Source of the DNA: Pseudomonas sp. SCA2728.1_7
GTDB taxonomy: Bacteria > Pseudomonadota > Gammaproteobacteria > Pseudomonadales > Pseudomonadaceae
DNA length: 64,000 nucleotides
Direction of reading: 5' to 3'
Assembly: GCF_018138145.1 (NCBI RefSeq)
Contig: NZ_CP073104.1
Coordinates: 682,001 to 746,000 of the forward strand
Shown here: in pieces, positions 39,312-54,346 of the stretch
Position numbering within the stretch: position 1 is the stretch's first letter
Layout of the letters: every line of letters begins with the position of its first letter
The notes under the pieces: generated by a model
What the model saw: only the letters and a program-made list of their open reading frames with translations
Database searches by the model: none
Told to the model about the DNA's origin: nothing
Position numbers and translations under genes: made by a program

Positions 39312-39468
39312 CGGAGCAAGGCATCGGGCTCTACAATCGCTCATCCCAAGCAGTGTTCGATGTAGCGTTCGGTCAGTTCGAGCTTCTTCTAAAGGGCGAA
39401 TCAGTACCTATCGCAACTACGTTTGGTGGCTTCCCTTGTGTAACTGATTCACGCGCACTGGCGCTTGG

Positions 39469-39510
39469 TATCTTCGTTAGCGATACCTCCCAACGACGCA
39501 TGCGATTGGC
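39469..39510 (+). promoter_or_regulatory. Catabolic-cluster operator, copy A (upstream of first LysR gene)
   Basis: TATCTTCGTTAGCGATA at 39469-39485 gives the 17-base frame TATC-N9-GATA. It is followed by CCTCC and then CGATTGGC at 39503-39510. The CGATT element begins 34 bases after the first base of the core, exactly as in the copies at 43771, 44777 and 46284. It is 96-137 bases before the LysR start. The rest of the 294-bp gap 39312-39605 shows nothing I can name. Confidence 0.6.
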
Positions 39511-39605
39511 GCATGGGTACACAGCTCGCTAAGGTCATGATTCGTTTTTGATCCTGCCTGCAAACCGGGCGCAAAGACGTCACCATCACCTTCAGCGGAA
39601 CCCAC

Positions 39606-40541
39606 ATGCGATATCGACGCCTCGACCTTAATCTGTTGGTTGCGCTGGACGCCTTGTTGAGCGAATGCAGTGTCAGCCGGGCGGCCGAGCGTCTGTGCCT
39701 GGGGCAGTCAGCTGCCAGTTCGGCATTGGGCCGCTTGCGTGAACATTTCAACGACCCGTTACTGGTGCAAGTGGGGCGCCGCCTGGAACCCACGGCGCTG
39801 GGCCTGGAGTTGCTGCCAAAGGTACGTGCAGCGTTGGCACTGACACGGGAAGTCGTCGACGCGCCACTAAGTTTTGATCCGGCGAACTGTGACCGGCACA
39901 TCACCCTCGTAGCCTCCGATTACGTCGCCGACGTGCTGGTTCCGGCGGTCAGCCGTGTATTGGCGCGTATCGCTCCGGGTATTCGCTTGAGCCTGCGCGA
40001 CATGCCGGTGCCGCGCGACGGTGATGTCGTCAGCGAAGCCCTGGATTATCGGCGCAGTGATTGCGTGATTGTGCCGCAACGACGGTTGAACCCGGCCTAT
40101 CCCCATGTGCCGCTGATGACGGACCAGCTCTGTTGTATTGTCTGCGCGCAACAGCCACAGTTTGCCGAGCAACTGAGCATGGCTGACTATCGCGCCGCGG
40201 CGCATGTGGTGCGCGAGTTTGCCGACGGACACAATCTGGCGATGGACGCCATGCACCTGCATGAACTCGGAATAGAGCGGCAAGTGGCGGTAACCGTTGA
40301 AAGCTTTGTGCTGATGCCGCAATTCATTGTCGGTACCGCGCGCATTGCCACGGTGTTTCAACGACAGGCGCAACGCTTCGCCCAGTGTTATCCATTACGC
40401 GTCCACCCGGCGCCGTTGGCTTTTCCCGAGGCCGTTCAAGTCTTGCAATGGCATCCCTATCAAGAACATGACCCGGTTATGCAGTGGTTTCGCGGCCTGC
40501 TTCTGGAACAGGCCGCGTTGCTCGATCAGCCGTCTGGTTGA
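39606..40541 (+). CDS. LysR-family regulator 1 (NodD/FdeR-like)
   Basis: 311 residues. N-terminal winged helix: LDLNLLVALDALLSECSVSR and AAERLCLGQSAASSALGRLR, then DPLLVQVGRRLEPTALGLELL, typical of the NodD-like LysR branch whose members often sense aromatic compounds. The effector domain follows from about residue 95. It precedes and converges with the amidohydrolase/GlcG pair and has the cluster operator upstream, so it is likely autoregulated. It resembles the second LysR at 43739-44701 in its N-terminus. Its 3' end overlaps the GlcG-like gene by 16 bp, tail to tail. Confidence 0.9.
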   Translation: MRYRRLDLNLLVALDALLSECSVSRAAERLCLGQSAASSALGRLREHFNDPLLVQVGRRLEPTALGLELLPKVRAALALTREVVDAPLSFDPANCDRHITLVASDYVADVLVPAVSRVLARIAPGIRLSLRDMPVPRDGDVVSEALDYRRSDCVIVPQRRLNPAYPHVPLMTDQLCCIVCAQQPQFAEQLSMADYRAAAHVVREFADGHNLAMDAMHLHELGIERQVAVTVESFVLMPQFIVGTARIATVFQRQAQRFAQCYPLRVHPAPLAFPEAVQVLQWHPYQEHDPVMQWFRGLLLEQAALLDQPSG

Positions 40542-40972
40542 TCGCCGCTGTCGGCGACCAATCCAGCCTTGGCTATGGCCAGCAATGCGCAGCGCTCGTC
40601 GTTGTCCGAGGTATCGCCACTGATGCCGATAGCCCCGATCACCACGCCCTCGGCATTACGGATCAGCACACCACCCGCCACGGGAATCACCTCGCCGCCA
40701 GTCAAACTGTTGATCGCATCGAAAAACGCTGGCATTGCCTGCGCGCGCCGCGCCAGTTCACGCCCACCAAAACCCATGCCCAGGCAACCGCGTGCCTTGC
40801 CGATGGCGATTTGCGGGCGCAGGAAGGTGGCGTGTTCGTCGCGCAAAACCGCCAAGGGATGGCCGGCGGCATCCAGTACGGCAACGCCCAGCGGTTTGAT
40901 CCCGGTTTCCCGAGCGATGCGGATGGCATCGCTGGCTATGGTCGTCGCAGTCAGTAAATCAAGTCGTTGCAT
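40526..40972 (-). CDS. GlcG/HbpS-family protein
   Basis: 148 residues beginning MQRLDLLTATTIASDAIRIA. The domain shows GIKPLGVAVLDAAGHPLAVL, IAIGKARGCLGMGFGGREL and GGVLIRNAEGVVIGAIGISG, the typical GlcG/PduO-like fold that can bind haem or small ligands. It is 11 bp downstream of the amidohydrolase gene and surely co-transcribed. A start 5 codons upstream is also possible. GlcG proteins often sit in catabolic operons without a defined role; an accessory function in ring or chain breakdown is inference. Confidence 0.8.
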   Translation of the reverse strand: MQRLDLLTATTIASDAIRIARETGIKPLGVAVLDAAGHPLAVLRDEHATFLRPQIAIGKARGCLGMGFGGRELARRAQAMPAFFDAINSLTGGEVIPVAGGVLIRNAEGVVIGAIGISGDTSDNDERCALLAIAKAGLVADSGDQPDG

Positions 40973-40983
40973 GGCCTCTGTCC

Positions 40984-42333
40984 TCATACGGCCCACTTGC
41001 CCAGTTGGGCCACGCGGTCGCGGGTGTAAAGATCCGTCCATTTCAGTGAGTTGAAGTCGGACACCTGCTTGGGGTTGTAGGGGCTGCGATCCATGCGTAC
41101 CGGTTGGCCGGCCTTGTAAACGGCCTTCAGGCGCGAACGATCCTGAAGGATGCGGATGTCGTCCAGTGGTGAACCGTCGAGCACGAGGAAGTCTGCCTGC
41201 TTGCCCACTTGCAGGGTGCCGAGGGTTTCACCGCGCGGCATGCAGCGCGCGCCGACAGCGGTCGCGGCATATAAGGCTTCGGCCGGGGTGAATCCAAGCC
41301 GAGTGACAAATAACTCCAGTTCACGAGCGTGCCACTCGCCGTAAGGCGTCACCGCGAACCCGCTGTCACTGCCGCAGGCGAACGGTACGCCGGCCGCTTT
41401 GGCGCGTTTGAGTACCGCCGAACCGACCTCCAATGTGCGAGCACAATAACCGGCATAACCCGTGCTGATCGCCGGATCATGGGGCTGGCAGAAGTCCACG
41501 GTGTTCTGCGGGAACGTCATGGTCGGGGCAAGGATGCTACCGGCCTCGAGCAACGCTTCGATGCACGCGTCGTCCATGTAAAAGGCATGGAAAACCAGGT
41601 CAACGCCTGCACGCGCCGCGTACATCACAGCTTCGCGCCCATAAGCATGGGTGGCGACCTTGCAGCCCAGACGATGCGCTTCCTCAACCATTTCGAAGGT
41701 TTCGTCGGCAGTGAAGGCCGCAATGATTTCGCCGTTGGGGCGGCGGTGCGTGCCGTCCATGGCGATCTTGATCAGGTCGACGCCGTCCTTGGCCTGTTTG
41801 CGAATTTCGGCGAGTGCATCGCTGCGGCTGGTGACCAACTGCGCGGTGAAGTATTCCGGAGCGCCGACCCGACTCGGGAACCAGTCATTGAGACTCTGGC
41901 GGTTGGTGATGACGCGGCTGCTGGCTGCGATGCGCGGGCCTTCAAATAAACCAGCGGTCACCGCATTGCGCACGGCGATGCTGAGCTGGCCGCTGTCGCC
42001 GGGGCAGACCATGCTGGTGACGCCGGCGGCCAGCACGTGTTGCGCGAAGAACATCCCGCGCAACGCGCGAAATTCGTCACTGGTCCATAGATCAATGTCT
42101 TCTTCGCTTTGAGCGTTGCCGAAGGCCAGATGGGTGTGCACATCTACCAGCCCCGGCATCACGAAATTATCCCCCGCATCCACCTGTGTATCGCCTGGCT
42201 GGGGAGAGGGGGCCAGCGCGGTAGCGCCGACGTAACTGAGCAGGCCGTTTTCGACGATCAATGTCTGTTGTTGGCGGGTTTGCAGTCCGGTGCCGTCAAA
42301 CAGGGTCTGGCATTTCAGGTGCAGGGCAGTCAT
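40984..42333 (-). CDS. Metal-dependent amidohydrolase-family hydrolase
   Basis: 449 residues of the amidohydrolase TIM-barrel superfamily (imidazolonepropionase/prolidase-like branch). Metal site VDVHTHLAFG is at about 64-73. A lysine in DLIKIAMDGT may bridge the metals. Other ligands are in VATHAYGREA, LVFHAFYMDD and FACGSDSGFAV. C-terminal beta domain: LGTLQVGKQADFLVLDG. It cleaves a C-N, C-O or similar bond in an unknown substrate. A perfect palindrome typical of a LysR site sits 85-101 bases upstream, so it is probably controlled with the rest of the catabolic cluster. Confidence 0.85.
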   Translation of the reverse strand: MTALHLKCQTLFDGTGLQTRQQQTLIVENGLLSYVGATALAPSPQPGDTQVDAGDNFVMPGLVDVHTHLAFGNAQSEEDIDLWTSDEFRALRGMFFAQHVLAAGVTSMVCPGDSGQLSIAVRNAVTAGLFEGPRIAASSRVITNRQSLNDWFPSRVGAPEYFTAQLVTSRSDALAEIRKQAKDGVDLIKIAMDGTHRRPNGEIIAAFTADETFEMVEEAHRLGCKVATHAYGREAVMYAARAGVDLVFHAFYMDDACIEALLEAGSILAPTMTFPQNTVDFCQPHDPAISTGYAGYCARTLEVGSAVLKRAKAAGVPFACGSDSGFAVTPYGEWHARELELFVTRLGFTPAEALYAATAVGARCMPRGETLGTLQVGKQADFLVLDGSPLDDIRILQDRSRLKAVYKAGQPVRMDRSPYNPKQVSDFNSLKWTDLYTRDRVAQLGKWAV

Positions 42334-42417
42334 GGCGTCTTCGCTATGTGATTGTTATGCAAAGAGAGGCTAGAGAGCAGGCGAGGGGACGACCAGCAGA
42401 TTGCATCGATGGCTGAG

Positions 42418-42434
42418 TATTGACGGCATCAATA
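42418..42434 (-). promoter_or_regulatory. LysR-type palindrome upstream of the amidohydrolase
   Basis: TATTGACGGCATCAATA, a perfect 17-base dyad TATTGA-N5-TCAATA holding a T-N11-A core. It uses the same 17-base frame as the cluster operators (TATCGC-N5-GCGATA at 46284) but with A/T in place of C/G at the inner arm and without the downstream CGATT element. It lies 85-101 bases before the amidohydrolase start. Confidence 0.5.
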
Positions 42435-42463
42435 GCTGCGCCAGCGCTTGAATCCGTTAATGC

Positions 42464-42501
42464 AAAACGCCGGACAATCGAAAGATTATCCGGCGTTTTT
42501 T
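42464..42501. terminator. Rho-independent terminator, probably bidirectional
   Basis: Stem AAAACGCCGGA / TCCGGCGTTTT, extended by AATC/GATT around a GAAA loop, followed by TTTTTT on the plus strand. It lies just beyond the stop of the alpha/beta hydrolase gene (minus strand), where it would end that transcript. Confidence 0.75.
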
Positions 42502-42521
42502 ATGGCGTGTTTTTCAGTGGA

Positions 42522-43679
42522 TCAAGCGGTGCGACCGCCGAGGGTTTCAGCAACCCAGTCAGCAATGTATTGCCCGGCATTGATGCTGTTGTCGAAGCTC
42601 GAATGCTGCACACCACCTTCACGTTCGGTGAAGATTTTCAGTTCACATTTTGGACTGTTGACCAGTTGTTCGTAGGTGCGATGCGCCCATTTCAACGGAA
42701 TCTGCGAATCCTGTTCACCATGGGTCACCAGGAACGGCACCTTGATGCGGTCGAGCACGCCGTCGAGGTGGACGTTTTCGGCGATGCTCATGAACTCTTC
42801 GACGTCCTTGGCACCCCAGACCCAGCAGACATGCGCCCAGTAATGCGGTACCGGGAAGCTGCCTTCCTTTTCCAGTCGACGCTTTTGTACATCACGCCAG
42901 TCGTGGTTGGCGCCCCACACGACGCCGCAAGCGAAGCGCGGTTCGAATGCAACTGCACGCGGGCAGTAATAACCGCCCAACGAGACACCTTCGAGTCCAA
43001 TGCGTGCAGCGTCAACGTCGCTTCGGGTTTCCAGCCAATCCACCACACGACTGGCCCAGTGTTCACTGTCGAATCGTGCAGTCAGGCCATGCAGGCGCAG
43101 CGCTTCGCCGGTGCCGGGCTGGTCGATGATCAGCGAAGAGATGCCGCGTTTCGCCAGCCAGGCTGGCAGGCCCACGCGGTATTTCATTTCCTTGGTCGAG
43201 TCCAGGCCGTTGACCTGCACCAGAATCGGCGCCGGCCCCTCGACGCCTTCGGCACGCACCAGCAAGCCGGAAAGATGTTTGCCCTCGTAAGGGATTTCCA
43301 CCCGTTCGCAGTTTTCACGCGACAGTTCGACGCCGCGCTTGAAGGTCTGCAGGAAACGTTGATAGAGCTCAGTGCGGCCCGGCGCACCGTGGGCTTGCAG
43401 GCGCTCGCAGGTCAGATAATAGGTGGCGGCGCGGTTGTATTTTTCGCCAGCCGAGAGCATCCGGCCATTGCCTTCGTCTTCCTCGGCCAGACCGCAAAGC
43501 TTGTCGGCCATTTTCGCCCAGGTTTCGCGAAAGGCGCGGGTTCCGGCTGCGTCCGGCTGCTTGGCCGCCTCTTGCAGCGGGGCGCACATCTCTTCGATTT
43601 CGCCCATGCGGGCGCCCATTTCAATGGCCAGGTCGACAGAGAGATTCCAAACGTAGTTGGTCGGGAAATAGCGAAACAT
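42522..43679 (-). CDS. Alpha/beta hydrolase, C-C-bond hydrolase-like (DHPON hydrolase/FrsA-like)
   Basis: 385 residues. The N-terminal 130 residues are helical, as in 2,6-dihydroxypseudooxynicotine hydrolase and its relatives that cleave C-C bonds next to a carbonyl. The hydrolase core has the nucleophile elbow GVSLGGYYCPRAVAF, VQVNGLDSTKEM (oxyanion region), a probable acid in THGEQDSQIP and the His in GVQHSSFDN. In the setting of a ring-cleavage cluster it could hydrolyse the meta-cleavage product or split a diketone. A copy of the cluster operator lies 92-108 bases upstream. Confidence 0.8.
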   Translation of the reverse strand: MFRYFPTNYVWNLSVDLAIEMGARMGEIEEMCAPLQEAAKQPDAAGTRAFRETWAKMADKLCGLAEEDEGNGRMLSAGEKYNRAATYYLTCERLQAHGAPGRTELYQRFLQTFKRGVELSRENCERVEIPYEGKHLSGLLVRAEGVEGPAPILVQVNGLDSTKEMKYRVGLPAWLAKRGISSLIIDQPGTGEALRLHGLTARFDSEHWASRVVDWLETRSDVDAARIGLEGVSLGGYYCPRAVAFEPRFACGVVWGANHDWRDVQKRRLEKEGSFPVPHYWAHVCWVWGAKDVEEFMSIAENVHLDGVLDRIKVPFLVTHGEQDSQIPLKWAHRTYEQLVNSPKCELKIFTEREGGVQHSSFDNSINAGQYIADWVAETLGGRTA

Positions 43680-43738
43680 GATTATTGTTGTCCTTATGGT
43701 TGCCTTGGCATTCCCAAGGCACGTTAAGGATCACCCGA

Positions 43739-44701
43739 CTAATTGGCCAATCGTGACGGCGGATACGAGGTATCGCGAGATACGATGGGCACGTGTTGCA
43801 GATGCTGGATGGATTCGCTGATGCGTTCGCGCAGCCAGCGGTGCATCGGGTCGCCGTCAACGCTGCGGTGCCACAACATGTACTCGCGCATGACCGGGAT
43901 CTTCACCGGTGGCGGCAGGATGCGCAGCGGCAGATAGTGCGCGTAGAGGTTCGCCAGGCGCTGGTGCATCGTGGCGATGCGCTGCGTGCCGACAATCAGT
44001 TGCGGCAGGGTATTGAAGTCGCTGGTGATCACTTCAATGCGCCGATTGAAGCCGTATTGATTCATGAACCATTCTTCGATGCTCATGTGCCGGGTACGGC
44101 CGAAGCCCACCGAGACATGGCCCATCTGCATGTACTGCTCAAGGGTCAGGGTGTCGCCGACTTGCGTATTGCCTTGCCACACCACGCACACGTGTTCTTC
44201 CTCGAACAGCAGGTGCGAAGGGTGGCCTTCAATGATGTAGCGCTCGGGAACAATCATCAGATCGACCTCGCCACGTACCAGCAACTCGCCGGAATTGTCG
44301 CTTGGGCCAAGCATTTCGAAAGTGATGTTGGGCGCTTGCTGATGAATGTTCTGGATCACTTGGGCGAACAGCACGCTGATCAGATAGTCCGAGGTCACCA
44401 AGCGGAAATGACGCTTGCTGGTGGCCGGGTCGAACACCGGTTTGGCAGTGATTGAGGACTGGATCGTCAGCAGGACTTCACGCACCGGTTTGGCCAGTTC
44501 CGTGGCATAGGGCGTGGGCTGCATCTTGCGTCCGACCTGCACCAGCAGCTCATCCTCGAAGTAGGTACGCAACCGCGCGAGCACGCCGCTGGTGGCGGAT
44601 TGGGTCATGTGCAGGCGTTCGGCAGCGCGGGTGATGTTCTGCTCTTCGAGCAACACATCGAGCGCGACCAGCAGGTTCAGATCCAGATGGTTGAAACGCA
44701 T
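43739..44701 (-). CDS. LysR-family regulator 2 (NodD/FdeR-like)
   Basis: 320 residues from the ATG at 44701 (MRFNHLDLNLLVALDVLLEE). The in-frame start 17 codons upstream is rejected because the family starts here. Winged helix: NITRAAERLHMTQSATSGVL. The effector domain has FRLVTSDYLISVLFAQVI. It is divergent from the dioxygenase operon with an operator copy between them, the classic LysR arrangement, so it is the best candidate activator of the 44959-58941 operon. Like FdeR and NodD it may respond to a flavonoid or another aromatic; that is inference. Confidence 0.9.
   Translation of the reverse strand: MRFNHLDLNLLVALDVLLEEQNITRAAERLHMTQSATSGVLARLRTYFEDELLVQVGRKMQPTPYATELAKPVREVLLTIQSSITAKPVFDPATSKRHFRLVTSDYLISVLFAQVIQNIHQQAPNITFEMLGPSDNSGELLVRGEVDLMIVPERYIIEGHPSHLLFEEEHVCVVWQGNTQVGDTLTLEQYMQMGHVSVGFGRTRHMSIEEWFMNQYGFNRRIEVITSDFNTLPQLIVGTQRIATMHQRLANLYAHYLPLRILPPPVKIPVMREYMLWHRSVDGDPMHRWLRERISESIQHLQHVPIVSRDTSYPPSRLAN
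43745..43787 (-). promoter_or_regulatory. Catabolic-cluster operator, copy B (upstream of the hydrolase)
   Basis: Read on the minus strand from 43787: CATCGTATCTCGCGATA, then CCTCGTATCC, then CGATTGGCC. The CGATT element starts 34 bases after the core start, as in the other copies. The segment shares GCGATACCTC and CGATTGGC with copy A. It lies inside the 3' end of the LysR 2 gene and 66-108 bases before the hydrolase start. Confidence 0.6.
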
Positions 44702-44776
44702 GGGCAGGTCCGTTTTTGTATTTATTTTCGCAATACATTCGAACGAATCCATTGGCGCGTCAACCTTCGTCGCAGG

Positions 44777-44820
44777 TATCGCGTTTGCCGATAGGTCGCA
44801 TCCCGACTCGCGATTAGTCA
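44777..44820 (+). promoter_or_regulatory. Catabolic-cluster operator, copy C (between LysR 2 and the dioxygenase)
   Basis: TATCGCGTTTGCCGATA at 44777-44793, then TCGCATCC, then ACTCGCGATTAGTCA ending at 44820. It matches copy D (46284-46327) at 37 of 44 positions by my alignment. The CGATT element is again 34 bases from the core start. The core lies 76-92 bases from the LysR 2 start and about 166-182 bases from the dioxygenase start. Confidence 0.75.
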
Positions 44821-44958
44821 GCTGTCAGCCCTTGCGCCAATCTTCGCCGCAGTCGGCCCTGCTGCCGACACCACCACCGGTTTCCAGTCAGGCCTGGCGC
44901 GCTGCAAGGCGTCCATGGCGACAGTCACCGGATCATAATTTCAATGGAGTGGTAAGCC

Positions 44959-45900
44959 ATGAACATCATTGGCCTTGATGCCCTGATTTTTGGCGTCGAT
45001 GACATTCAAGCCTGCACCGATTGCCTGCGCGACTACGGCCTTGCGCCGGTCGGCGTAGACAGCAAAGGCGGGCGTTTCGAAGCGCTGGACGGCACTGCCG
45101 TGATTATCCGCCGAGCCGACGATCCTGACTTGCCGGCGGCGATCGGTCCGGCGCCGTCGATTCGCGAGACGGTCTACGGGGTCGCTGCGATCAGCGATCT
45201 GGATGCCATCGAAGATGAGCTGGCCCGTGATCGTAGTGTCAGTCGTGATCAACACGGCGTGCTGCACAGCGTTGACGACATGGGTTTCGCTATCGCTTTT
45301 CAGGTCACTGTACGCAAGCCTTACAGCGCACCGGATGACCTGACCAACGCCGCCGGCCATGCGCCACAGCGGCCGCTTAACCAGCCGGGCATTACCCTTG
45401 ATATGGGCGCTGTGCCGCGCACTTTGTCGCACGTGGTGTATTTCGTACCCGATGCGGCGAAAGCGGAAGCCTTTTACGCCGAGCGTCTGGGTTTTCGCAC
45501 CACCGACACCTTCATTGGCGCCGGGCCGTTCATGCGCCCGGCCGGCTCTGACGATCACCATTGCCTGTTCATGATCCAGACCCCGCCGCACATGAAAGGC
45601 TGCGAACACTTCACCTTCCACATGGGCAGTGGCACCGAAGTGCTGCTGGCCGGGACGCGGTTCGAGCAAAAAGGCTGGACCAGTTTCTGGGGGCCGGGCC
45701 GTCACCTGTTTGGCTCCAACTGGTTCTGGTACTTCAACAGTCCATTGGGCTGCCACATCGAATATGACGCCGATATGGACAAGCACGATGACGCCTGGGA
45801 GGCCCGTCGCGCGCCGCTGTCGGCGGATAACTCGCAGTTGTTCCTGTTTACCGCGAAAGAAAAATGGGCCCCGGGCGGTCCGCCGCCAAAACTCGGTTGA
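44959..45900 (+). CDS. VOC-superfamily extradiol (meta-cleavage) ring dioxygenase
   Basis: 313 residues with two vicinal-oxygen-chelate modules. The C-terminal one carries the likely iron ligands: His158 in LSHVVYFVPDA, a His of CEHFTFHMG at 217 or 221, and Glu268 in GCHIEYDAD. This is the 2-His-1-Glu set of type I extradiol dioxygenases. It would open a catechol-like ring next to a hydroxyl. It is the first gene of a long operon, 13 bp before a small Rieske protein. In the fde naringenin operon of Herbaspirillum a dioxygenase (FdeC) cleaves the hydroxylated A ring; this gene holds the equivalent place. Confidence 0.85.
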   Translation: MNIIGLDALIFGVDDIQACTDCLRDYGLAPVGVDSKGGRFEALDGTAVIIRRADDPDLPAAIGPAPSIRETVYGVAAISDLDAIEDELARDRSVSRDQHGVLHSVDDMGFAIAFQVTVRKPYSAPDDLTNAAGHAPQRPLNQPGITLDMGAVPRTLSHVVYFVPDAAKAEAFYAERLGFRTTDTFIGAGPFMRPAGSDDHHCLFMIQTPPHMKGCEHFTFHMGSGTEVLLAGTRFEQKGWTSFWGPGRHLFGSNWFWYFNSPLGCHIEYDADMDKHDDAWEARRAPLSADNSQLFLFTAKEKWAPGGPPPKLG

Positions 45901-45913
45901 GGCCGCGCTGATC

Positions 45914-46276
45914 ATGAGCGCTATTGCGCAGCCACTGTGTCGGCTGGACGAACTGGAGGAGGGCCGGGCGCGCGGATTCGATCCGTTGGCGCAGGGCCGC
46001 GACAGCGTATTTGCCCTGCGTCATCGCAATCAGGTGCGGGTCTATCGCAACCGTTGTCCGCATCTGGACGTGCGCCTGGAGTATCGCAAGGATCGGTTCC
46101 TGTCCGCCGATGGCCAGTTGATCGTCTGTTACGCCCACGGTGCGCAATTTCTGCCGGCGACCGGCGAGTGCATCTACGGCCCATGCCTGGGCCAGACGCT
46201 GGAGGCGCTGCCGACCTACGAGAAGGACGGCTGGCTGCTGGTGCGAATGCCTGAAGGGTTGCCGCAGCCGGGATAA
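45914..46276 (+). CDS. Small Rieske [2Fe-2S] ferredoxin-like protein
   Basis: 120 residues consisting only of a Rieske domain. Cluster ligands are Cys48-x-His50 in NRCPHLDVRLEY and Cys72-x2-His75 in VCYAHGAQFLPATG. Starts at 45914 (MSAIAQPLCRLDELEEGR). There is no oxygenase alpha or beta subunit next to it. It sits between the dioxygenase and the flavin hydroxylase and may reduce or reactivate the dioxygenase iron, as suggested for ferredoxins in meta-pathway operons. Confidence 0.85.
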   Translation: MSAIAQPLCRLDELEEGRARGFDPLAQGRDSVFALRHRNQVRVYRNRCPHLDVRLEYRKDRFLSADGQLIVCYAHGAQFLPATGECIYGPCLGQTLEALPTYEKDGWLLVRMPEGLPQPG

Positions 46277-46283
46277 ATCGAGG

Positions 46284-46327
46284 TATCGCGTACGGCGATA
46301 CATCGCATCCTTACTCGCGATTAGTCA
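46284..46327 (+). promoter_or_regulatory. Catabolic-cluster operator, copy D (upstream of the FAD hydroxylase)
   Basis: TATCGCGTACGGCGATA at 46284-46300 is a perfect TATCGC-N5-GCGATA dyad. It is followed by TCGCATCC and ACTCGCGATTAGTCA to 46327, which also gives a second wider dyad ATCGC-N10-GCGAT. It lies 84-127 bases before the hydroxylase start, within the otherwise tight operon, so it marks an internal LysR-dependent promoter. Confidence 0.75.
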
Positions 46328-46410
46328 AATCCCTGCTTTGCCGGGAAGCTTCATCCAACGATGCCGTGCCCGACGCAGCATCGATCACAAGAATAAAAAG
46401 AGAGAACACC

Positions 46411-47547
46411 ATGAGTGCAGTGAACAACGTTCTGATCGTGGGCGGTGGTATCGGCGGCTTGTGTGCGGCCATCGCCTTGCGGCGTAAAGGTATCGAGGTC
46501 GACCTGATCGAGCTCAAGTCCGAATGGACAGTCTACGGCGTCGGGATTATTCAGCAGAGCAACGTCGTCCGTGAGATGGCCAAGCTGGGCGTTCTCGACG
46601 GTTATCTCGATGCCGCTTATGCCTTCGAAGACGTCGCTATCTACGGCCCGGGCGGGCAGCAACTGGCGCGCATTCCGGGTCAGCGACTGGCCGGCCCGCA
46701 GTATCCTGCCAACGTCGGTATTTCCCGCCTGGCACTGCACAAAGTCCTCAGCGAAACCGCGCTGCAGCTCGGTGCCAACGTCCGTTTGGGCTTGAGTGTG
46801 GAAACGCTGGACGACAACGGCGCAGAGGTCGACGTGTTGTTTACCGACGGCAATCGCGGCCACTACGACCTGGTGGTCGGTGCCGACGGACTGTTCTCGA
46901 AAGTGCGCAGCCTGGTCTTCGGCGATGCCTACACCCCGCGTTTCACGGGCCAATCGGTGTGGCGCTACAACTTTCCCCGCGCACCACAGATCGATCATCT
47001 GGCCAACTATCAAAGCGCTGACGGCAACGCCGGTCTGGTGCCGCTGGCCGGCGATTTGATGTACCTGTTTCTGACGTCTCACGAACCGTCCAATCCGTGG
47101 ATGGATCCTGCCGATCTGGCTGCGCAGATGCGCCAGCGCCTGCAAGGCTTTACCGGGCTGATCGGCGAGCTGCGTGAGCAAATCACCGACAACAGCCAGG
47201 TCGTCTACAAGCCGATGGAAGTGGTGTTCGTCGATGAGCCGTGGCATCGCGGACGCGTCCTGCTGATCGGCGATGCGGCCCACGCCACCACGCCGCACCT
47301 CGGTCAAGGCGCCGGCATGGCCATCGAAGACGCGATTGTGCTCAGCGAAGAACTGACTCGCGAGCAGTCCGCCGCCAGCAGCGTCGAGCAGCAGTTGCAG
47401 CGCTTCATGGCGCGGCGCTTCGAACGTTGCAAATACATCAGCGAAAGCTCGGTGCTGGCCGGCGACAAGGAAATGCAACACGACCGCGCCTTCGATCGCA
47501 TTGGCCTGGTCAAGCAAATGCTCGCGCGCACTGCCGAGCCAATCTGA
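46411..47547 (+). CDS. FAD-dependent aromatic monooxygenase (hydroxylase)
   Basis: 378 residues of the p-hydroxybenzoate-hydroxylase-like class A flavoprotein family. FAD-binding VLIVGGGIGGLCAAIALRR is at the N-terminus, the DG motif YDLVVGADGLFSKVRS in the middle, and GRVLLIGDAAHATTPHLGQG near residues 285-305. Starts at 46411 behind AGAGA; an upstream in-frame ATG at 46366 lacks a site. It would hydroxylate a phenolic ring with NAD(P)H. Paired with the extradiol dioxygenase this gives hydroxylation then ring cleavage. FdeE, which adds an 8-hydroxyl to naringenin, is the comparison I have in mind. Confidence 0.88.
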   Translation: MSAVNNVLIVGGGIGGLCAAIALRRKGIEVDLIELKSEWTVYGVGIIQQSNVVREMAKLGVLDGYLDAAYAFEDVAIYGPGGQQLARIPGQRLAGPQYPANVGISRLALHKVLSETALQLGANVRLGLSVETLDDNGAEVDVLFTDGNRGHYDLVVGADGLFSKVRSLVFGDAYTPRFTGQSVWRYNFPRAPQIDHLANYQSADGNAGLVPLAGDLMYLFLTSHEPSNPWMDPADLAAQMRQRLQGFTGLIGELREQITDNSQVVYKPMEVVFVDEPWHRGRVLLIGDAAHATTPHLGQGAGMAIEDAIVLSEELTREQSAASSVEQQLQRFMARRFERCKYISESSVLAGDKEMQHDRAFDRIGLVKQMLARTAEPI

Positions 47548-47604: not shown

Positions 47605-49302
47605 ATGGTTAGTTCTACGACTGCGGCGCTCACGCGTCGCCCGGTCTGCTCGTCTGCACCCTTTGGTTTGAGCGTTGCTGCGCTGCTGGTGCTGTGCAGC
47701 CAGGCCGCTCACGCTTTCGACATCGATACCGGCAACCCGGACTTCAAGCTGCGCTGGGACAACACGATCAAGTACAGCGCTGCCTGGCGCACGCAGAATC
47801 CGAGCAGCAAATTGACCGAGGGGCAGGTAGCGCTCAATCAGGACGATGGCGATCGTGCGTTCAAAAAAGGCCTGATCTCCAATCGCACCGATATCCTCTC
47901 GGAGCTGGATCTGTCGTTTCAGGATTTCGGCGCACGTTTGAGCGGTGCAGCGTGGTACGACAGCGAGTACCAGGGCAACAACGACAATAATGATCCAAGC
48001 CGCGCCAACGCGCGTTCGGTGGGCTACGACGAGTTCACCGATGACACCCGTCATTTGCACGGTGGCGACGGCGAAATCCTCGACGCGTTCGTCTACTGGA
48101 ACGGTGAACTGGCCGACCGTGCAACGTCGGTGCGCGCCGGCCGTCATGGCCTGATCTGGGGCGAAAGCCTGTTCTTCGGCGCCAACGGTATTGCCGGTGG
48201 CATGGCCCCGGTTGACGTGGTCAAGGCGCAGTCGGTGCCTAACACGCAGTTCAAGGAAATCACCCGTCCGGTCAATCAACTGTCTGGCACCTTCCAACTG
48301 ACGGACGACGTATCGCTCGGTGCCTACTACCAACTCGAATGGGAAGAAACCCGACTGCCCGCCGCTGGCAGTTATTTCTCCACCAGCGACACCATTGGCG
48401 AAGGCAATGAGCGCTTGATCGTCGGTGCGCCGTTTCCAGCATTTCTTGGCGGCAACCCGGCCAGTCCTGCCGCGTTTTTCCACGGCAATGACAAGGAAGC
48501 GCGCAGTTCGGGGCAGGGCGGTCTGCAACTGAAATACAGCGCTGAGACCGTCGAATACGGCCTCTACGCCATTCAGTACCACGACAAGACGCCCAAGCTG
48601 TACCTCAGACCTTCCACTGGCGCACCGAACTTCAGCACGGGCCAAATCGGCGATTACTACTGGGTTTACCCGGAAGACATCCGCGCGCTGGGCGCCAGTT
48701 TCTCCACCACAGTCGATGCCTACAGCTTTGCCGGTGAAGCCTCGATGCGCTGGAACATGCCGCTGGTGTCCAACGGCGTCACGGTGCTACCTGGGGTTGC
48801 TGCCGATAACGATGACGATGCGCTTTATGCCGTCGGGCGCACCGCGCACATCAACCTCAACGTGATCGCTTCGTTCGGGCCGAACTTCATCGCCAAGGAG
48901 TCCGGATTCGTCGGTGAGGTCGCCTGGAACCGTCTGCTCAGCGTCACGAAAAACCGTGCCGCACTAGACCCCAACGCCACCGATGACGGTCTCGGCTTCA
49001 AGATGGTTTACACCCCGACTTATCGGCAGTTTTTCCCCGGCGTGGATATCAGCATTCCGGTTGGCATGAGCTATTTCCCGCTGGGCAAATCGGCGGTTGT
49101 CAGTTCGTTCGGCGCGGATAACGGCGGTGACATGAATATCGGTATTACCGCGACCTACCTCGACCGTGTGACCGCCGGCCTGACGTACACGCATTACTAC
49201 GGCCCCGAGAACACCAACCTCAACGCGGCCAGCCAATTCAATTTCCAGCAATCGCTGAAAGATCGGGATTACCTGGCTTTCTCCGTCAAGACCACGTTTT
49301 AA
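47605..49302 (+). CDS. DUF1302 outer-membrane protein
   Basis: 565 residues with a signal peptide of about 38 residues (LLVLCSQAAHA before FDIDTGNPDFKLRWD), then a beta-rich sequence ending in the aromatic YLAFSVKTTF typical of a barrel. DUF1302 proteins are encoded with DUF1329 proteins in many Gammaproteobacteria and are thought to be outer-membrane channels for hydrophobic compounds; the function is not settled. It is 57 bp after the hydroxylase, with AGAGG before the ATG. Confidence 0.85.
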   Translation: MVSSTTAALTRRPVCSSAPFGLSVAALLVLCSQAAHAFDIDTGNPDFKLRWDNTIKYSAAWRTQNPSSKLTEGQVALNQDDGDRAFKKGLISNRTDILSELDLSFQDFGARLSGAAWYDSEYQGNNDNNDPSRANARSVGYDEFTDDTRHLHGGDGEILDAFVYWNGELADRATSVRAGRHGLIWGESLFFGANGIAGGMAPVDVVKAQSVPNTQFKEITRPVNQLSGTFQLTDDVSLGAYYQLEWEETRLPAAGSYFSTSDTIGEGNERLIVGAPFPAFLGGNPASPAAFFHGNDKEARSSGQGGLQLKYSAETVEYGLYAIQYHDKTPKLYLRPSTGAPNFSTGQIGDYYWVYPEDIRALGASFSTTVDAYSFAGEASMRWNMPLVSNGVTVLPGVAADNDDDALYAVGRTAHINLNVIASFGPNFIAKESGFVGEVAWNRLLSVTKNRAALDPNATDDGLGFKMVYTPTYRQFFPGVDISIPVGMSYFPLGKSAVVSSFGADNGGDMNIGITATYLDRVTAGLTYTHYYGPENTNLNAASQFNFQQSLKDRDYLAFSVKTTF

Positions 49303-49314
49303 GAGGACTTGCGC

Positions 49315-50703
49315 ATGACCTATAACAACAAAAATGCCGCGTTCACACTCAAAGCCTTGTGCTTTGCGTTGCTCGCAAGCCTGGCGGTATTGAGTCACGG
49401 TGCCGCAGCAGCCACGGCTGACGAAGCGGCGAAATTGAACAAGTCACTGACGCCTTTCGGTGCCGAGCGCGCCGGCAATGCCGACGGTTCGATTCCAGCC
49501 TGGGATGGCGGCTACACCAAGGTCGATCCGGCCTTCAAGGAGGGCGGCAAACGCAGCGATCCGTTTGCGGCCGACAAGCCGCTGTTCAGCATCACCTCAA
49601 AGAATCTGGCGCAATACGCCACCAAGCTCAGCGATGGCACCAAGGAGATGTTCAAGCGATTTCCTGACACCTATCGCATCGACGTCTATCCGACCCGTCG
49701 CTCGGCCGCTGCGCCGCAATGGGTGTACGACAACACCCTGAAAAATGCCACCCGCGCCAAGCTGGTCGAGAGCAGCGCTGGACCGGTGCCCGAAGGCGCG
49801 TTTGGCGGTATTCCATTCCCGATCCCGCATAACGGCGCCGAAGCCATGTGGAACCACATCCTCAACTGGCGCGGCACGTCACTGGCCATGCACTTTCGCC
49901 ATTACCTGATGACCGCAGACGGCAAACAGGTGATGACCACCGACGGCCAGGCGATCCAGGACATGCCGTATTACTACCAGGACGGCACGCCGGAAAGCTT
50001 CGCCGGTGATTACTGGCTGTTCCGTCTGCTTAACGTCGGCCCACCGTTGCGTGCCGGTGAGCAGATCATGGGGCGCACCAATATCAACGGCGACAAGTCC
50101 CAGGCTCACGTCTATCTGACCGGCCAGCGCCGCGTGCGCAAGTTGCCGAATGCCTGCTGCGACACACCGACGCCGGCCACCGCCGGGGTGATGTCGTTCG
50201 ATGAGTTGAGCGTGTTCCAGGGACGCATTGATCGCTTCGACTGGAAACTGGTCGGCAAGCAGGAAATGTACATCCCCTACAACACCAACAAAGTCCTGAC
50301 CGCCGGCAAGCCGGAAGATTTGTTCCTGGCCCATCACATGAATCCCGATTACGTGCGCTGGGAGTTGCATCGCGTGTGGGTGGTAGACGCCGAACTCGCG
50401 CCGGGCAAGCGTCACCAGTTGCCGAAGGGCCGCTACTACCTCGACGAAGATACTTGGCAAGCCATGCTCGGCGATCGCTGGGACGCCAACGGCCAACTCG
50501 CCAAAACCTTGTGGTCGCTGCCAGCCGTGCTGCCGGATCTGCCAGCGCAAGCGCAGCTGTCTTCGGGTTTCTACGACCTGACCTCCGGCGCCTGGTTTAT
50601 CCAGAACGTCTACACCGGTCTGCCTGAGCAATACGGCGTGGTCGATCGCTACAAGGCATCGGAATTCTCGCCGGCGGCGATGGCGGGTGCCGGGGTTCGT
50701 TGA
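49315..50703 (+). CDS. DUF1329 periplasmic (LolB-like) protein
   Basis: 462 residues. Signal peptide about 1-33 (LASLAVLSHGAAAA), then LNKSLTPFGAERAGNADGSI, the start of the DUF1329 domain, whose fold resembles lipoprotein- or lipid-binding proteins. The ATG at 49315 has GAGGA 7 bases upstream, and a TTG two codons earlier is less likely. The gene lies 12 bp after DUF1302. Probably a periplasmic carrier working with the barrel and the RND pump. Confidence 0.85.
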   Translation: MTYNNKNAAFTLKALCFALLASLAVLSHGAAAATADEAAKLNKSLTPFGAERAGNADGSIPAWDGGYTKVDPAFKEGGKRSDPFAADKPLFSITSKNLAQYATKLSDGTKEMFKRFPDTYRIDVYPTRRSAAAPQWVYDNTLKNATRAKLVESSAGPVPEGAFGGIPFPIPHNGAEAMWNHILNWRGTSLAMHFRHYLMTADGKQVMTTDGQAIQDMPYYYQDGTPESFAGDYWLFRLLNVGPPLRAGEQIMGRTNINGDKSQAHVYLTGQRRVRKLPNACCDTPTPATAGVMSFDELSVFQGRIDRFDWKLVGKQEMYIPYNTNKVLTAGKPEDLFLAHHMNPDYVRWELHRVWVVDAELAPGKRHQLPKGRYYLDEDTWQAMLGDRWDANGQLAKTLWSLPAVLPDLPAQAQLSSGFYDLTSGAWFIQNVYTGLPEQYGVVDRYKASEFSPAAMAGAGVR

Positions 50704-50763
50704 ATCGGGCCGGATCGCCACACGCTGTGGCGATCCGGTTTCACAGGTGGTTTCGAGGTCGGT

Positions 50764-51867
50764 ATGAACAGAATCTGTCAGGTGCTCGGGCGGTTGTTAG
50801 CGCTGCTGGCGCTGCCTTGCGTAGTACCCGTGAGTCAGGCTCAGGCCGCTGCCGTCGGCGATGTATTGCACACCCCGGCGATGCGCGCGCCACAGGCCCG
50901 CCAAGCGGTCTTGCTTGATCTGGCCCGGTCAGGTGCGCGGTTGGTGGCGGTCGGCGAACGCGGCATCGTCTTGCTCTCCGATGACAACGGCATCAATTGG
51001 CGGCAGGCGCAGGTGCCGGTGTCCGTCAGCCTTACGGCGGTGCAATTTGTCGATGCCAACACGGGTTGGGCGGTCGGCCATGCCGGTGCGGTGCTGGTCT
51101 CCCACGACGGTGGGGAAAACTGGGCGTTGCAGCTGGACGGCAACCGCGCTGCGCAACTGGAGTTGCACGCCGCACGCGAGCAACTGCCGACAGCCACTGA
51201 CCCGGACGCAGCGGCGGCGCGCGTGCAAACCGCCGAACGGATGGTCAGCGAAGGTGCGGACAAACCGTTTCTCAGCCTCAAGTTCACCGATGAGCGTCAC
51301 GGCCTGATCGTCGGCGCCTACGGCCTCGCGTTTACCACCGAGGACGGCGGGGTGAGCTGGCAGTCGCTGATGGGCCATATCGACAATCCGATGGGCGCGC
51401 ACCTGTATGCCATCGCGCAACAAGGCGAGCGTTGGTTCATCGCCGGCGAGCAAGGCTATGTGGCGCGTTCCGAGGACGGTGGACAATCCTTCGTCGCGCT
51501 CGACAGCCCGTACAGCGGCAGCTTTTTCGCCCTGCATGTACGCGATGACGGCGCGCTGCTGGCGGCTGGGTTGAAAGGCAACGCGTTCATTTCCACCGAC
51601 GACGGCAACAGCTTCGTGCCCGCGCCCGTACCGATGCCGGTGTCCTTCAGTGATGCGATCCGCAGCGATGACGGCCAGTTGTTGTTGGTCAATCAGGCGG
51701 GCGCAATGTTTCGCACCACGGGCGACGCAACAACCCTGCAGCCTTTCGGCAAACCGCTGGGCAAACCGATTGCCAGCGTCGTGCAGGCCGCCGATGGCAG
51801 CCTGGTGCTGGCCGGTTTCACCGGGGTGACGCGCCTGGCGTCGCCCACTGCTACAGCTTCGGAGTGA
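50764..51867 (+). CDS. YCF48-like beta-propeller periplasmic protein
   Basis: 367 residues with a signal peptide of about 29 residues (VPVSQAQAAAV). The rest repeats a blade pattern: GWAVGHAGAVLVSHDGGENW, LIVGAYGLAFTTEDGGVSW, FIAGEQGYVARSEDGGQSF, AAGLKGNAFISTDDGNSF. It belongs to the photosystem II assembly factor YCF48/BNR-repeat family. In DUF1302/DUF1329/RND sets it is assumed to be a periplasmic assembly or adaptor protein. Its stop is 4 bp before the RND start. Confidence 0.85.
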   Translation: MNRICQVLGRLLALLALPCVVPVSQAQAAAVGDVLHTPAMRAPQARQAVLLDLARSGARLVAVGERGIVLLSDDNGINWRQAQVPVSVSLTAVQFVDANTGWAVGHAGAVLVSHDGGENWALQLDGNRAAQLELHAAREQLPTATDPDAAAARVQTAERMVSEGADKPFLSLKFTDERHGLIVGAYGLAFTTEDGGVSWQSLMGHIDNPMGAHLYAIAQQGERWFIAGEQGYVARSEDGGQSFVALDSPYSGSFFALHVRDDGALLAAGLKGNAFISTDDGNSFVPAPVPMPVSFSDAIRSDDGQLLLVNQAGAMFRTTGDATTLQPFGKPLGKPIASVVQAADGSLVLAGFTGVTRLASPTATASE

Positions 51868-51871
51868 GGTT

Positions 51872-54346
51872 ATGAAACCATTCGACAACGCCACGGCCAG
51901 CCTGGCGAGTTTCGACCCGCGCTCCGGCTCGGTCGTGGAACGCTCTTTGTTCAATCACCGGTTGTGGGTGTTGCTGGTGTGCCTGGTGACCACGCTCTTC
52001 CTGGGCTATCAGGCCACGCGCGTCGAGCTGAACGCCAGTTTCGAAAAGATGATTCCCACGCAACAGCCTTACATCGCCAATTATCTGCAACATCAAAAGC
52101 AGCTCAGCGGTCTGGGCAACTCCTTGCGCATTGTCGTCGCCAATCGCCAGGGCGATATCTACGACGCTGATTATCTGAAAACCTTGCAGGCCTTGAGCGA
52201 CAAGCTTTACCTGCTGCCCGGCGTCGATCGTGCCTACATGAAGTCGCTGTGGACGCCCGCAACACGCTGGGTTGCAGTGACTGAAGACGGACTGGATGGC
52301 GGCCCGGTGATCCCGGACGATTATGCCGGCACACCGGCCAGTCTCGAGGACTTGCGCCGCAACGTGCAGCGTTCCAACGAACTCGGCCAACTGGTAGCGT
52401 TCGATCAAACCTCGAGCATCATTTACGTGCCGTTGCTGGCGACGACTGCTGACGGCCAGGCGCTGAATTACTCGGTGCTGTCCGAGCAACTGGAGGCGTT
52501 GCGTAGCCAGTACCAGAACGAAAAGATCGACATTCACATCACCGGTTTCGCGAAAAAAGTCGGTGACCTGATTGCCGGACTCAAGCAGATCCTGTTGTTT
52601 TTCGCCGTCGCAATCCTGATCACCACCGCCGTGCTGTTCTGGTACACGCGCTGCCTGCGCAGCACGGTGCTGGTGGTGTTCTGCTCGCTGGTGGCGGTGG
52701 TCTGGCAACTGGGTCTGTTGCCGTTGCTCGACTATCAGCTGGATCCGTATTCGGTGCTGGTGCCGTTTCTGGTGTTCGCCATCGGCATGAGCCACGGTGC
52801 GCAGAAGATGAACGGCATCATGCAGGACATCGGTCGCGGCATGCACCGGGTGGTGGCGGCGCGATTTACCTTCCGCCGACTGTTCCTGGCCGGGCTGACG
52901 GCATTGCTCTGCGACGCAGTGGGTTTTGCCGTGCTGATGCTGATCAAGATCCAGGTGATTCAGGATCTGGCGGTGATCGCCAGTATCGGTGTGGCGGTGC
53001 TGATTTTCACCAACCTGATTCTGCTGCCGGTGTTGCTGTCCTATGTCGGCGTAACGCCGCGTGCGGCGCAACTTAGCCTGAAGAGCGAGCAGAACGACCA
53101 GACCGGCGCGCGGCGTCATGGCTTCTGGCGTTTTCTCGATCTGTTTACCCGACGTCGCTGGGCCAGCCTGTGCATTGCCATCAGCCTGGCGTTGGCGGCA
53201 TTGGGTTTTGTGGTCAGCCTGCAATTGAAGATCGGTGATCTGGATGCCGGCGCACCGGAGCTGCGGGCCGACTCACGCTACAACCAGGACGATGCGTTTC
53301 TGACCCGGCATTACGGCGCCAGCAGTGATTTGTTCGCAGTGATGGTGAAGACCCCGGCCGGGCAATGTGCGCGTTACGACATCCTCGCCAAGGTCGATGC
53401 GCTGGACTGGCAACTGCGCGCGCTGCCGGGGGTGGATTCGACCAACTCGTTGGCCTTGCTCAACCGGCGCATGCTGGTTGGCCTCAGCGAAGGCAGCGCC
53501 AAGTGGTACGAGCTGCAGAACAATCAGGCGATGCTCAACATGATCACCGCCAGTGCGCCACGCGGCTTGTACAACGAGGATTGCAGCCTGCTCACGCTGT
53601 ACGCCTACCTCACCGACCACAAGGCTGAAACGCTGACGCGGCTGGTCGAACACGTCGAGCAATTCGCCGCAGCCAATAACGACAAGGATGTGCAGTTCCT
53701 GCTGGCAGCGGGCAATGCCGGCATTGAGGCGGCGACCAATATCGTGGTCAAGCAAGCCAATCGCGAGATGCTGTTCTGGGTTTACGGAGCGGTGATCGTC
53801 CTGTGCCTGATCACCTTCCGCTCGTGGCGCGCCACGCTGTGCGCGGTGATTCCACTGATGGTCACCTCGATCCTCTGTGAAGCATTGATGGTCTGGCTGA
53901 ACATCGGTGTGAAGGTCGCGACGTTGCCGGTGATCGCGTTGGGTGTCGGCATTGGCGTCGACTATGCGTTGTACGTGATGAGCATCCTGCTCGGTCATCT
54001 GCGCCAAGGCGCGAGCCTGTCAGAAGCCTATTACCGCGCACTGGTGTCCACCGGCAAAGTGGTGATGCTTACCGGCATCACGCTGGCCATTGGCGTGGCC
54101 ACGTGGATCTTCTCGCCGATCAAATTCCAGGCTGACATGGGCGTGCTGCTGGCGTTCATGTTCGTCTGGAACATGGTCGGCGCACTGCTGCTGTTACCAG
54201 CGCTGGCGTACTTCCTGCTGCCTGCACGGCGCACGAACACTGACGCAGAAACGCCGGAGGAGGCCATCAATCTGGCCCTGCCGTCGCGAGCCGTGGCGGT
54301 AGATGTTGTTCAATCGCGTCATCGGGAGACCTGTCATGGCCGTTGA
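51872..54346 (+). CDS. MMPL/RND-superfamily transporter
   Basis: 824 residues with twelve predicted helices in two MMPL halves. The first helix is at about 31-48, a large periplasmic loop follows, then a helix bundle at about 235-395. The second half repeats this, with IALGVGIGVDYALYVMSILL near residue 690 (the proton-relay helix). Members move lipids and hydrophobic small molecules. Together with DUF1302, DUF1329 and YCF48 it forms a cell-envelope transport module. The stop overlaps the MFS gene by 11 bp. Confidence 0.9.
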   Translation: MKPFDNATASLASFDPRSGSVVERSLFNHRLWVLLVCLVTTLFLGYQATRVELNASFEKMIPTQQPYIANYLQHQKQLSGLGNSLRIVVANRQGDIYDADYLKTLQALSDKLYLLPGVDRAYMKSLWTPATRWVAVTEDGLDGGPVIPDDYAGTPASLEDLRRNVQRSNELGQLVAFDQTSSIIYVPLLATTADGQALNYSVLSEQLEALRSQYQNEKIDIHITGFAKKVGDLIAGLKQILLFFAVAILITTAVLFWYTRCLRSTVLVVFCSLVAVVWQLGLLPLLDYQLDPYSVLVPFLVFAIGMSHGAQKMNGIMQDIGRGMHRVVAARFTFRRLFLAGLTALLCDAVGFAVLMLIKIQVIQDLAVIASIGVAVLIFTNLILLPVLLSYVGVTPRAAQLSLKSEQNDQTGARRHGFWRFLDLFTRRRWASLCIAISLALAALGFVVSLQLKIGDLDAGAPELRADSRYNQDDAFLTRHYGASSDLFAVMVKTPAGQCARYDILAKVDALDWQLRALPGVDSTNSLALLNRRMLVGLSEGSAKWYELQNNQAMLNMITASAPRGLYNEDCSLLTLYAYLTDHKAETLTRLVEHVEQFAAANNDKDVQFLLAAGNAGIEAATNIVVKQANREMLFWVYGAVIVLCLITFRSWRATLCAVIPLMVTSILCEALMVWLNIGVKVATLPVIALGVGIGVDYALYVMSILLGHLRQGASLSEAYYRALVSTGKVVMLTGITLAIGVATWIFSPIKFQADMGVLLAFMFVWNMVGALLLLPALAYFLLPARRTNTDAETPEEAINLALPSRAVAVDVVQSRHRETCHGR

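Follow-up and report, generated by a model that had tools for sequence, protein, structure and literature searches.

In Pseudomonas sp. SCA2728.1_7, a stretch of 64,000 nucleotides (nt) of the contig NZ_CP073104.1 (positions 682,001 to 746,000, hereafter the window) carries four copies of one operator, named A to D here, which precede the gene of a LysR-family regulator (LysR 1) and the genes of three catabolic enzymes, i.e., a hydrolase, a dioxygenase and a flavin adenine dinucleotide (FAD)-dependent hydroxylase (Table 1). Judged by their sequence, the sites are nod-box-type in architecture: they are built of two ATC-N9-GAT palindromes in a fixed register, a geometry that is conserved ahead of the orthologous genes and is nearly confined to these clusters within the genus. 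A second regulator gene of the cluster encodes LysR 2, a relative of the rhizobial nodulation regulator NodD. A shared LysR operator of fixed phase that defines a regulon is strongly supported, and it is highly probable that LysR 2 binds these nod-box-type sites and activates the catabolic units upon sensing an aromatic ligand.

A previous, sequence-only reading of the window had described each copy as a 17-base core followed by a CGATT element at a constant distance. The positions and orientations that it assigned to the four copies were found again, as was the phasing: every copy reads YATC-N9-GATA, with CGATT starting exactly 34 bases past the start of the core. Likewise, the identity of C and D at 37 of 44 positions was recovered; the remaining operator pairs are identical at 24-29 of 44. 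The two-part anatomy was retained as a shared fixed-phase LysR operator, but not as a core plus an independent CGATT, as both parts are the same palindrome. Specifically, the 17-base core is the first ATC-N9-GAT palindrome, whereas CGATT forms the right half of another, whose ATC starts 22 bases after the first ATC; since CGATT thus completes a palindrome, the anatomy with a separate element was rejected. In register, the perfect operators read Y-ATC-N9-GAT-N7-ATC-N9-GAT-T, and operators B, C and D do not deviate from the 12 palindrome letters, whereas A deviates in one (11 of 12), with AAC in place of the second ATC.

An origin of these sites by chance was rejected on the basis of genome, congener and shuffle controls. 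Even with one mismatch permitted, the window still holds just four matches, as opposed to 0.20 expected (100 dinucleotide shuffles, largest 1). A scan of the whole genome (6.78 Mb) with the pattern of the sequence-only reading returned five exact matches, and none with the reversed control pattern. The fifth match (C1:961274, equivalent to L006:3275) is devoid of the second ATC and scores 4.0 with a matrix built from 21 non-redundant Pseudomonas sites, compared with 29-62 for A-D; it precedes a gene read as MexE-like and fits, by eye, the MexT motif ATYA-N7-YGAT. The bare tandem pattern without mismatches occurs at four places in the genome (each on both strands; control 0), namely B, C, D and C1:305197, the last of which falls within a reading frame of L064. 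A paralogous cluster of the same genome (L044; dioxygenase 56% and LysR 48-49% identical) has no site with at least 11 palindrome letters; degenerate operator variants, found by matrices, lie there at 6615 (-) and 7629 (+), at the LysR promoter and before the dioxygenase gene. Additionally, no sigma-70 consensus promoter was detected in 39300-46600, compared with 2.2 (standard deviation 1.3) in shuffles, which lends weak support to the reading given at the outset.

The distribution of the sites across the genus follows that of the catabolic cluster, which named Pseudomonas records carry at about 92-99% protein identity. When 298 congeneric genomes were scanned for the complete tandem pattern including CGATT, 144 matches in 58 genomes were obtained, and none with the reversed control. 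The great majority of these matches (130/144) lie at most 20 kb from a dioxygenase gene of at least 52% identity, at a median distance of 1.2 kb, and the pattern is present in all 43 genomes with a dioxygenase of at least 79% identity vs. 15 of the 255 others. The earlier proposal that the sites define a regulon is thus borne out. The 14 matches located away from the dioxygenase were assigned to two conserved site families, with 12 members in one (the family of the L057 site described below) and two in the other.

The position of the sites relative to genes was followed in 41 longer congeneric loci, a site being a match on the same strand that scores at least 25 with the Pseudomonas matrix; some of these loci also supplied training sites for the matrix, some are closely related to the window, and at least three genomes are represented twice (L047/L142, L050/L108, L060/L128). 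Such a site lies 39-350 nt upstream of the hydrolase in 40 of the 40 loci that possess this gene, of the FAD hydroxylase in 34 of 34, and of the dioxygenase in 36 of 41. In four of the exceptions (L052, L053, L054 and L143) the hydrolase and dioxygenase genes adjoin and the site stands ahead of the hydrolase, and the fifth (L110) has merely a weak site (6.8) ahead of the dioxygenase; a DUF1302-DUF1329 unit that stands apart in L052 and L053 is also equipped with its own site. LysR 1, in turn, has a same-strand site scoring at least 25 within 350 nt upstream in only 9 of 21 loci. These data bear on the idea that the four sites are recent duplications of one segment without regulatory meaning, as the similarity between C and D might suggest. 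However, the sites are found in different contexts and on both strands, their columns show higher conservation than the remaining upstream sequence at all four promoters (0.81 vs. 0.66, 0.87 vs. 0.56, 0.70 vs. 0.47 and 0.64 vs. 0.38), and they still precede transcription units after rearrangement (L052, L053, L054). Duplication without function was rejected on account of this conservation and of the sites kept at rearranged units, and its probability is close to nil.

Nod boxes are the operators through which root-nodule bacteria react to plant flavonoids. The ATC-N9-GAT palindrome is the stated hallmark of nod boxes (PMC5596368; here and below, statements from cited papers are those of excerpts). 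In agreement with this, boxes from five symbiotic plasmids share the register of the operators and have CRATT at the same place, among them those of nodA, the acyl-carrier (nodF-side) gene and glmS in R. leguminosarum and that of nodB in C. taiwanensis. The two types of sites were compared with matrices in both directions, of which the one that uses the Pseudomonas matrix is blind. In 49 kb of R. leguminosarum (~98,000 positions), this matrix ranks the nodA box first, the glmS-side box fourth and the acyl-carrier box sixth; the C. taiwanensis nodB box ranks first and that of Rhizobium CB3171 second, outranked by another position, so that, of the three rhizobial stretches, two have the expected box on top and one has it in second place. 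Conversely, a rhizobial matrix derived from 38 boxes, into which geometric likeness is partly built because the boxes were picked by the tandem pattern with up to two mismatches, ranks C first and D third of ~128,000 window positions. The two matrices correlate at 0.61 in register, and the maximum of 20,000 column permutations is 0.42. The likeness to rhizobial nod boxes comprises the two palindromes, a NodD-like LysR and, at operator C, the divergent arrangement of regulator and target. In contrast, the half-sites mostly differ in their letters (ATCGC.. in the operators, ATCCA.. in rhizobial boxes), and the rhizobial letters outside the palindromes (AAACAATCRATT and the TTTTACCAATC tail) are not present in the operators, with only CRATT and part of the tail in common. 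The targets differ as well: the genes downstream are catabolic instead of nod genes, and the genome contains no match to the NodA family in a search that was positive in both control plasmids.

The same layout is found at distant catabolic clusters. Thirty-five loci with a NodD-like LysR gene (30-60% identity) were examined, 32 of them drawn from the best 80 of 357 dioxygenase loci from many proteobacteria, among which such a gene is frequent, and the rest being the paralog of this genome and two plasmid clusters; loci without a NodD-like gene in the stretch or with a LysR above 60% were excluded. In 28 of the 35, the top position of the rhizobial matrix in the entire locus (~13-25 kb) lies within ~420 nt upstream of the NodD-like LysR gene, whereas column-permuted matrices do so for 5.8 loci on average and for no more than 13 (150 trials); the misses are L073, L074, L076, L077, L086 (rank 2), L097 (rank 3) and L148. 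The scores of the rank-1 sites range from 4.3 to 42.3, with many of these sites degenerate. With the Pseudomonas matrix, 18 of the 35 loci are positive (permuted mean 1.6, maximum 6, 100 trials). Seven operators of Duganella, Pseudoduganella and Rugamonas are nearer to rhizobial boxes (rhizobial-matrix scores 16.4-42.3) and read ...AATCAATTTTACACATA, very near the R. leguminosarum ...AATCAATTTTACCAATC. A Massilia plasmid cluster (L045) has its own variant operator, ending AAACGGTTTT, between genes at 3425 (-), 12549 (-) and 20843 (-), as if operator and regulator had drifted together.

These frequencies also help to judge whether the sites are generic LysR operators, i.e., a T-N11-A recognition site and an activation site at the usual spacing, whose resemblance to nod boxes would be convergent and uninformative about NodD. 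The ATC-N9-GAT palindrome includes T-N11-A, the region bound by the regulator FdeR has been described as T-N11-A boxes (PMC10799723), and the MexT sites before mexEF-oprN, with the motif given above, are also termed nod boxes (PMC11432991). Moreover, a tandem site laid out in the same way accompanies a LysR that was read as YeiE-like from its sequence (see below). However, when 20 other LysR loci of this genome (20 kb each; about every sixth of 124 family matches, with gene starts estimated from the domain match) were scanned in the same way, the top position of the rhizobial matrix was upstream of the LysR gene in only one (L162), as with permuted matrices (mean 1.2, 40 trials), vs. the 28 of 35 NodD-like loci. 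A generic operator is thus an unlikely explanation, and the nod-box-type reading is preferred.

Regarding the protein that binds the sites, it had been predicted that either or both LysR proteins do so. LysR 2 has a helix-turn-helix and a NodD-like ligand domain, with mean identities to a set of NodD sequences of 55% in the DNA-binding part and 41% in the ligand domain; among solved structures, the best match to it is a ligand domain that shares 94.7% identity with R. leguminosarum NodD1, and close homologues carry the names nodulation protein D or nod box-dependent activator in some database records. All 41 cluster loci come with a LysR 2, which adjoins the cluster in 38 cases and lies at another genomic position in three; LysR 2 is thus the constant partner of the sites, as LysR 1 is not present for all of them. 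LysR 1 forms its own clade in the regulator tree. It could nevertheless be the actual regulator, alone or in a mixed complex with LysR 2, with LysR 2 sensing something else: operator A sits ahead of its gene in the window, and the DNA-binding domains of the two proteins are 61% identical. A genome-wide search of 12 relatives, own genome apart, also led us to reject the notion that LysR 1 is absent wherever it is missing beside the cluster, given that seven of them have orthologues of 61-86% identity, two with an internal stop and six located away from the cluster stretch; G060 has a doubtful 45% match only. By contrast, no LysR 1 orthologue was found in G267, G066, G272 and G299, whose best match (36-38%) is LysR 2 itself and which keep the operators, and LysR 1 occurs without LysR 2 in none of the 41 loci. 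Control by LysR 1 is therefore improbable, and the prediction narrows to LysR 2, which, as far as sequence comparison can tell, is probably the binder of all four operators.

We infer a scheme in which the 22 bases between the palindromes, i.e., about two helical turns, would place both on the same side of the DNA. NodD has been described as acting in tetrameric form (PMC5596368), and reference titles cited in PMC11771551 speak of its binding to two sites on one helix face. By analogy, LysR 2, transcribed away from operator C, may occupy each of the four operators as a tetramer. The ligand would be an aromatic compound, probably a flavonoid or an early breakdown product thereof. Once bound to it, LysR 2 would activate at least three catabolic units (hydrolase; dioxygenase-Rieske; FAD hydroxylase-DUF1302-DUF1329-YCF48-MMPL) and the LysR 1 unit, and it may tune its own gene through operator C. 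The DUF1302, DUF1329, YCF48 and MMPL genes probably form one operon with the hydroxylase gene, expressed from operator D.

Table 1. Operators and genes of the cluster, in positions of the window; distances run from the end of the operator to the start of the gene.
Feature	Position	Strand	Remarks
Operator A	39469..39507	+	11/12 palindrome letters; 99 nt ahead of LysR 1 start
Operator B	43749..43787	-	Perfect tandem; within 3' end of LysR 2 frame; 70 nt ahead of hydrolase
Operator C	44777..44815	+	Perfect tandem; between divergent LysR 2 and dioxygenase; 144 nt to dioxygenase start
Operator D	46284..46322	+	Perfect tandem; 89 nt ahead of FAD hydroxylase start
LysR 2	43739..44701	-	NodD-like, probable binder of all four operators; protein analyses used 43739-44704, one residue longer
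LysR 1	39606..40541	+	Separate LysR clade (Pfam, tree, genome search); unneeded for operator retention
Alpha/beta hydrolase	42522..43679	-	Nearest solved relative by sequence: 2,6-dihydroxypseudooxynicotine hydrolase
Glyoxalase-fold (extradiol-type) dioxygenase	44959..45900	+	
Rieske ferredoxin	45914..46276	+	
FAD-dependent aromatic hydroxylase	46411..47547	+	
DUF1302, DUF1329, YCF48 and MMPL genes	47605..54346	+	Names from annotated Massilia and Azospirillum homologues
HbpS-like protein and amidohydrolase	40526..42333	-	

The enzymes of the cluster point to a likely flavonoid-type substrate. The window contains the kinds of genes found in fde and ifc clusters, namely an FAD hydroxylase, a glyoxalase-fold dioxygenase and a hydrolase, together with a NodD-like LysR as in fde, a likeness judged by the kind of gene. 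Similar kinds of enzymes attack the A ring of naringenin and daidzein in these clusters (PMC11069340), and an fde-like cluster has been reported in P. thivervalensis (PMC8515041).

Several relatives differ from the window in the surroundings of the operators. In L048 (5799-7925), L141 and L063, a strong operator (53-60) stands ahead of a gene read as a methyl-accepting chemoreceptor, and LysR 1 directly follows the chemoreceptor gene in L048; across the 15 chemoreceptor genes of relatives, the sites are strong in three, weaker (17-41) in 11 and absent in one. The window has no match to the chemoreceptor gene, and operator A may therefore be what remains of its promoter. A fifth operator lies between the amidohydrolase and hydrolase genes of some relatives (L142:6962, L108:6686, L131:6841), in part reading on both strands; in the window, this gap (42334-42521) has no site scoring at least 25. 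In L061 and L066, the site at the position of operator D is kept, and the FAD hydroxylase gene downstream is missing or too diverged to detect.

A number of observations weigh against control of this regulon by a NodD-like protein through nod-box-type sites. At the level of the sites, the bare tandem pattern with one mismatch adds six places in the genome, i.e., A plus five elsewhere. The window operators score low with the rhizobial matrix (4.7-5.7), with an unrelated match (5.5) between C (5.7) and D (4.7), and A and B are not among its six best window matches; these low scores imply that the operators are diverged nod boxes. In the opposite direction, the box ahead of the calcium-binding protein gene of R. 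leguminosarum (two mismatches) is outside the top 8 of the Pseudomonas matrix. Within the genus, a family of tandem sites with the same layout is present in 12 of the 298 genomes. An instance at L057:9400-9438 is flanked by a yeiH-type gene and by the gene of a YeiE-like LysR (names read from sequence); as this site is paired with a different LysR, the geometry alone does not prove a NodD-type binder. Among the genomes with only a 52-65% identical dioxygenase, 3 of 10 have a site near it and 7 of 10 are without an exact site there, which slightly lowers our confidence. Of those without an exact site, G023 has a 67% identical LysR 2 with a stop inside, and G079 and G081 yielded no LysR 2 at E 1e-60, the dioxygenase of G079 also containing an internal stop.

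Concerning the regulator, LysR 2 is placed outside the NodD clade, in which the 11 NodD-labelled sequences of the tree come together (100/100); four of these are annotated as NodD, four lie beside nod genes and three (L037, L042, L154) were labelled by likeness. The tree has a midpoint root and several long branches, some of which meet each other, and its sampling was selective, with the NodD sequences taken from the best plasmid matches and the catabolic ones chosen by dioxygenase. Concerning the substrate, its assignment is drawn from homology, and disruption of the hydrolase gene in Variovorax left daidzein degradation running (PMC11069340).

If NodD-like regulators and their boxes serve catabolism, the nodulation switch could have been borrowed from digestion, i.e., NodD with its box would represent one branch of a more ancient proteobacterial circuit, in which a NodD-like LysR senses plant flavonoids and, acting through nod boxes, switches on their catabolism, and which rhizobia re-used for nod genes, a conjecture that we hold at slightly less than an even chance. 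The NodD sequences form one clade among catabolic regulators (with the midpoint root and selective sampling stated above), which fits a catabolic origin of the switch without proving it, and some Oxalobacteraceae catabolic clusters bear nearly canonical rhizobial boxes. The nod box is usually taken as a mark of symbiosis; the layout described here, accompanied by a NodD-like regulator, is a feature of catabolic clusters from a range of proteobacteria, the majority of which are, to our knowledge, not known as nodulators. Thus, such regulons can be mined by a signature that is easily read, promoters become available for biosensors of aromatic compounds, and the question of where the NodD circuit originated receives an answer that can be tested. 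If the regulon includes a chemoreceptor, as it appears to do in some relatives, finding a plant compound would be coupled to eating it.

NodD, nod boxes and the NodD-like FdeR are already known. As far as the literature search reaches (titles and abstract starts of open-licence papers), no description of nod-box operators in such a catabolic regulon was found among the matches listed; to this extent, the nod-box-type identity of the sites, the four-promoter regulon, its conservation across the genus and the same layout at distant catabolic clusters are new. The site at C1:961274, which fits the MexT motif by eye, differs from A-D in the missing second ATC and in its score. Among the closest known systems, two are catabolic. 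In Variovorax, the ifc cluster has an FAD hydroxylase, a glyoxalase-type dioxygenase and a hydrolase like 2,6-dihydropseudooxynicotine hydrolase, which are the kinds of enzymes found here; the main text on it does not mention a LysR, and no operator description was seen there (PMC11069340). In Herbaspirillum seropedicae, FdeR is reported to control naringenin degradation (PMC10799723), and, as in the window, a NodD-like LysR accompanies a cluster with an FAD hydroxylase and a glyoxalase-type dioxygenase (PMC10799723, PMC11069340). FdeR gives a 60-bp DNase I footprint on the fde promoter (PMC10799723, PMC11069340), in a region that is described as T-N11-A boxes and not as a nod box (PMC10799723). 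Compared by description, fde has these boxes in one intergenic region, whereas the cluster of Pseudomonas sp. SCA2728.1_7 has four operators that serve separate units.

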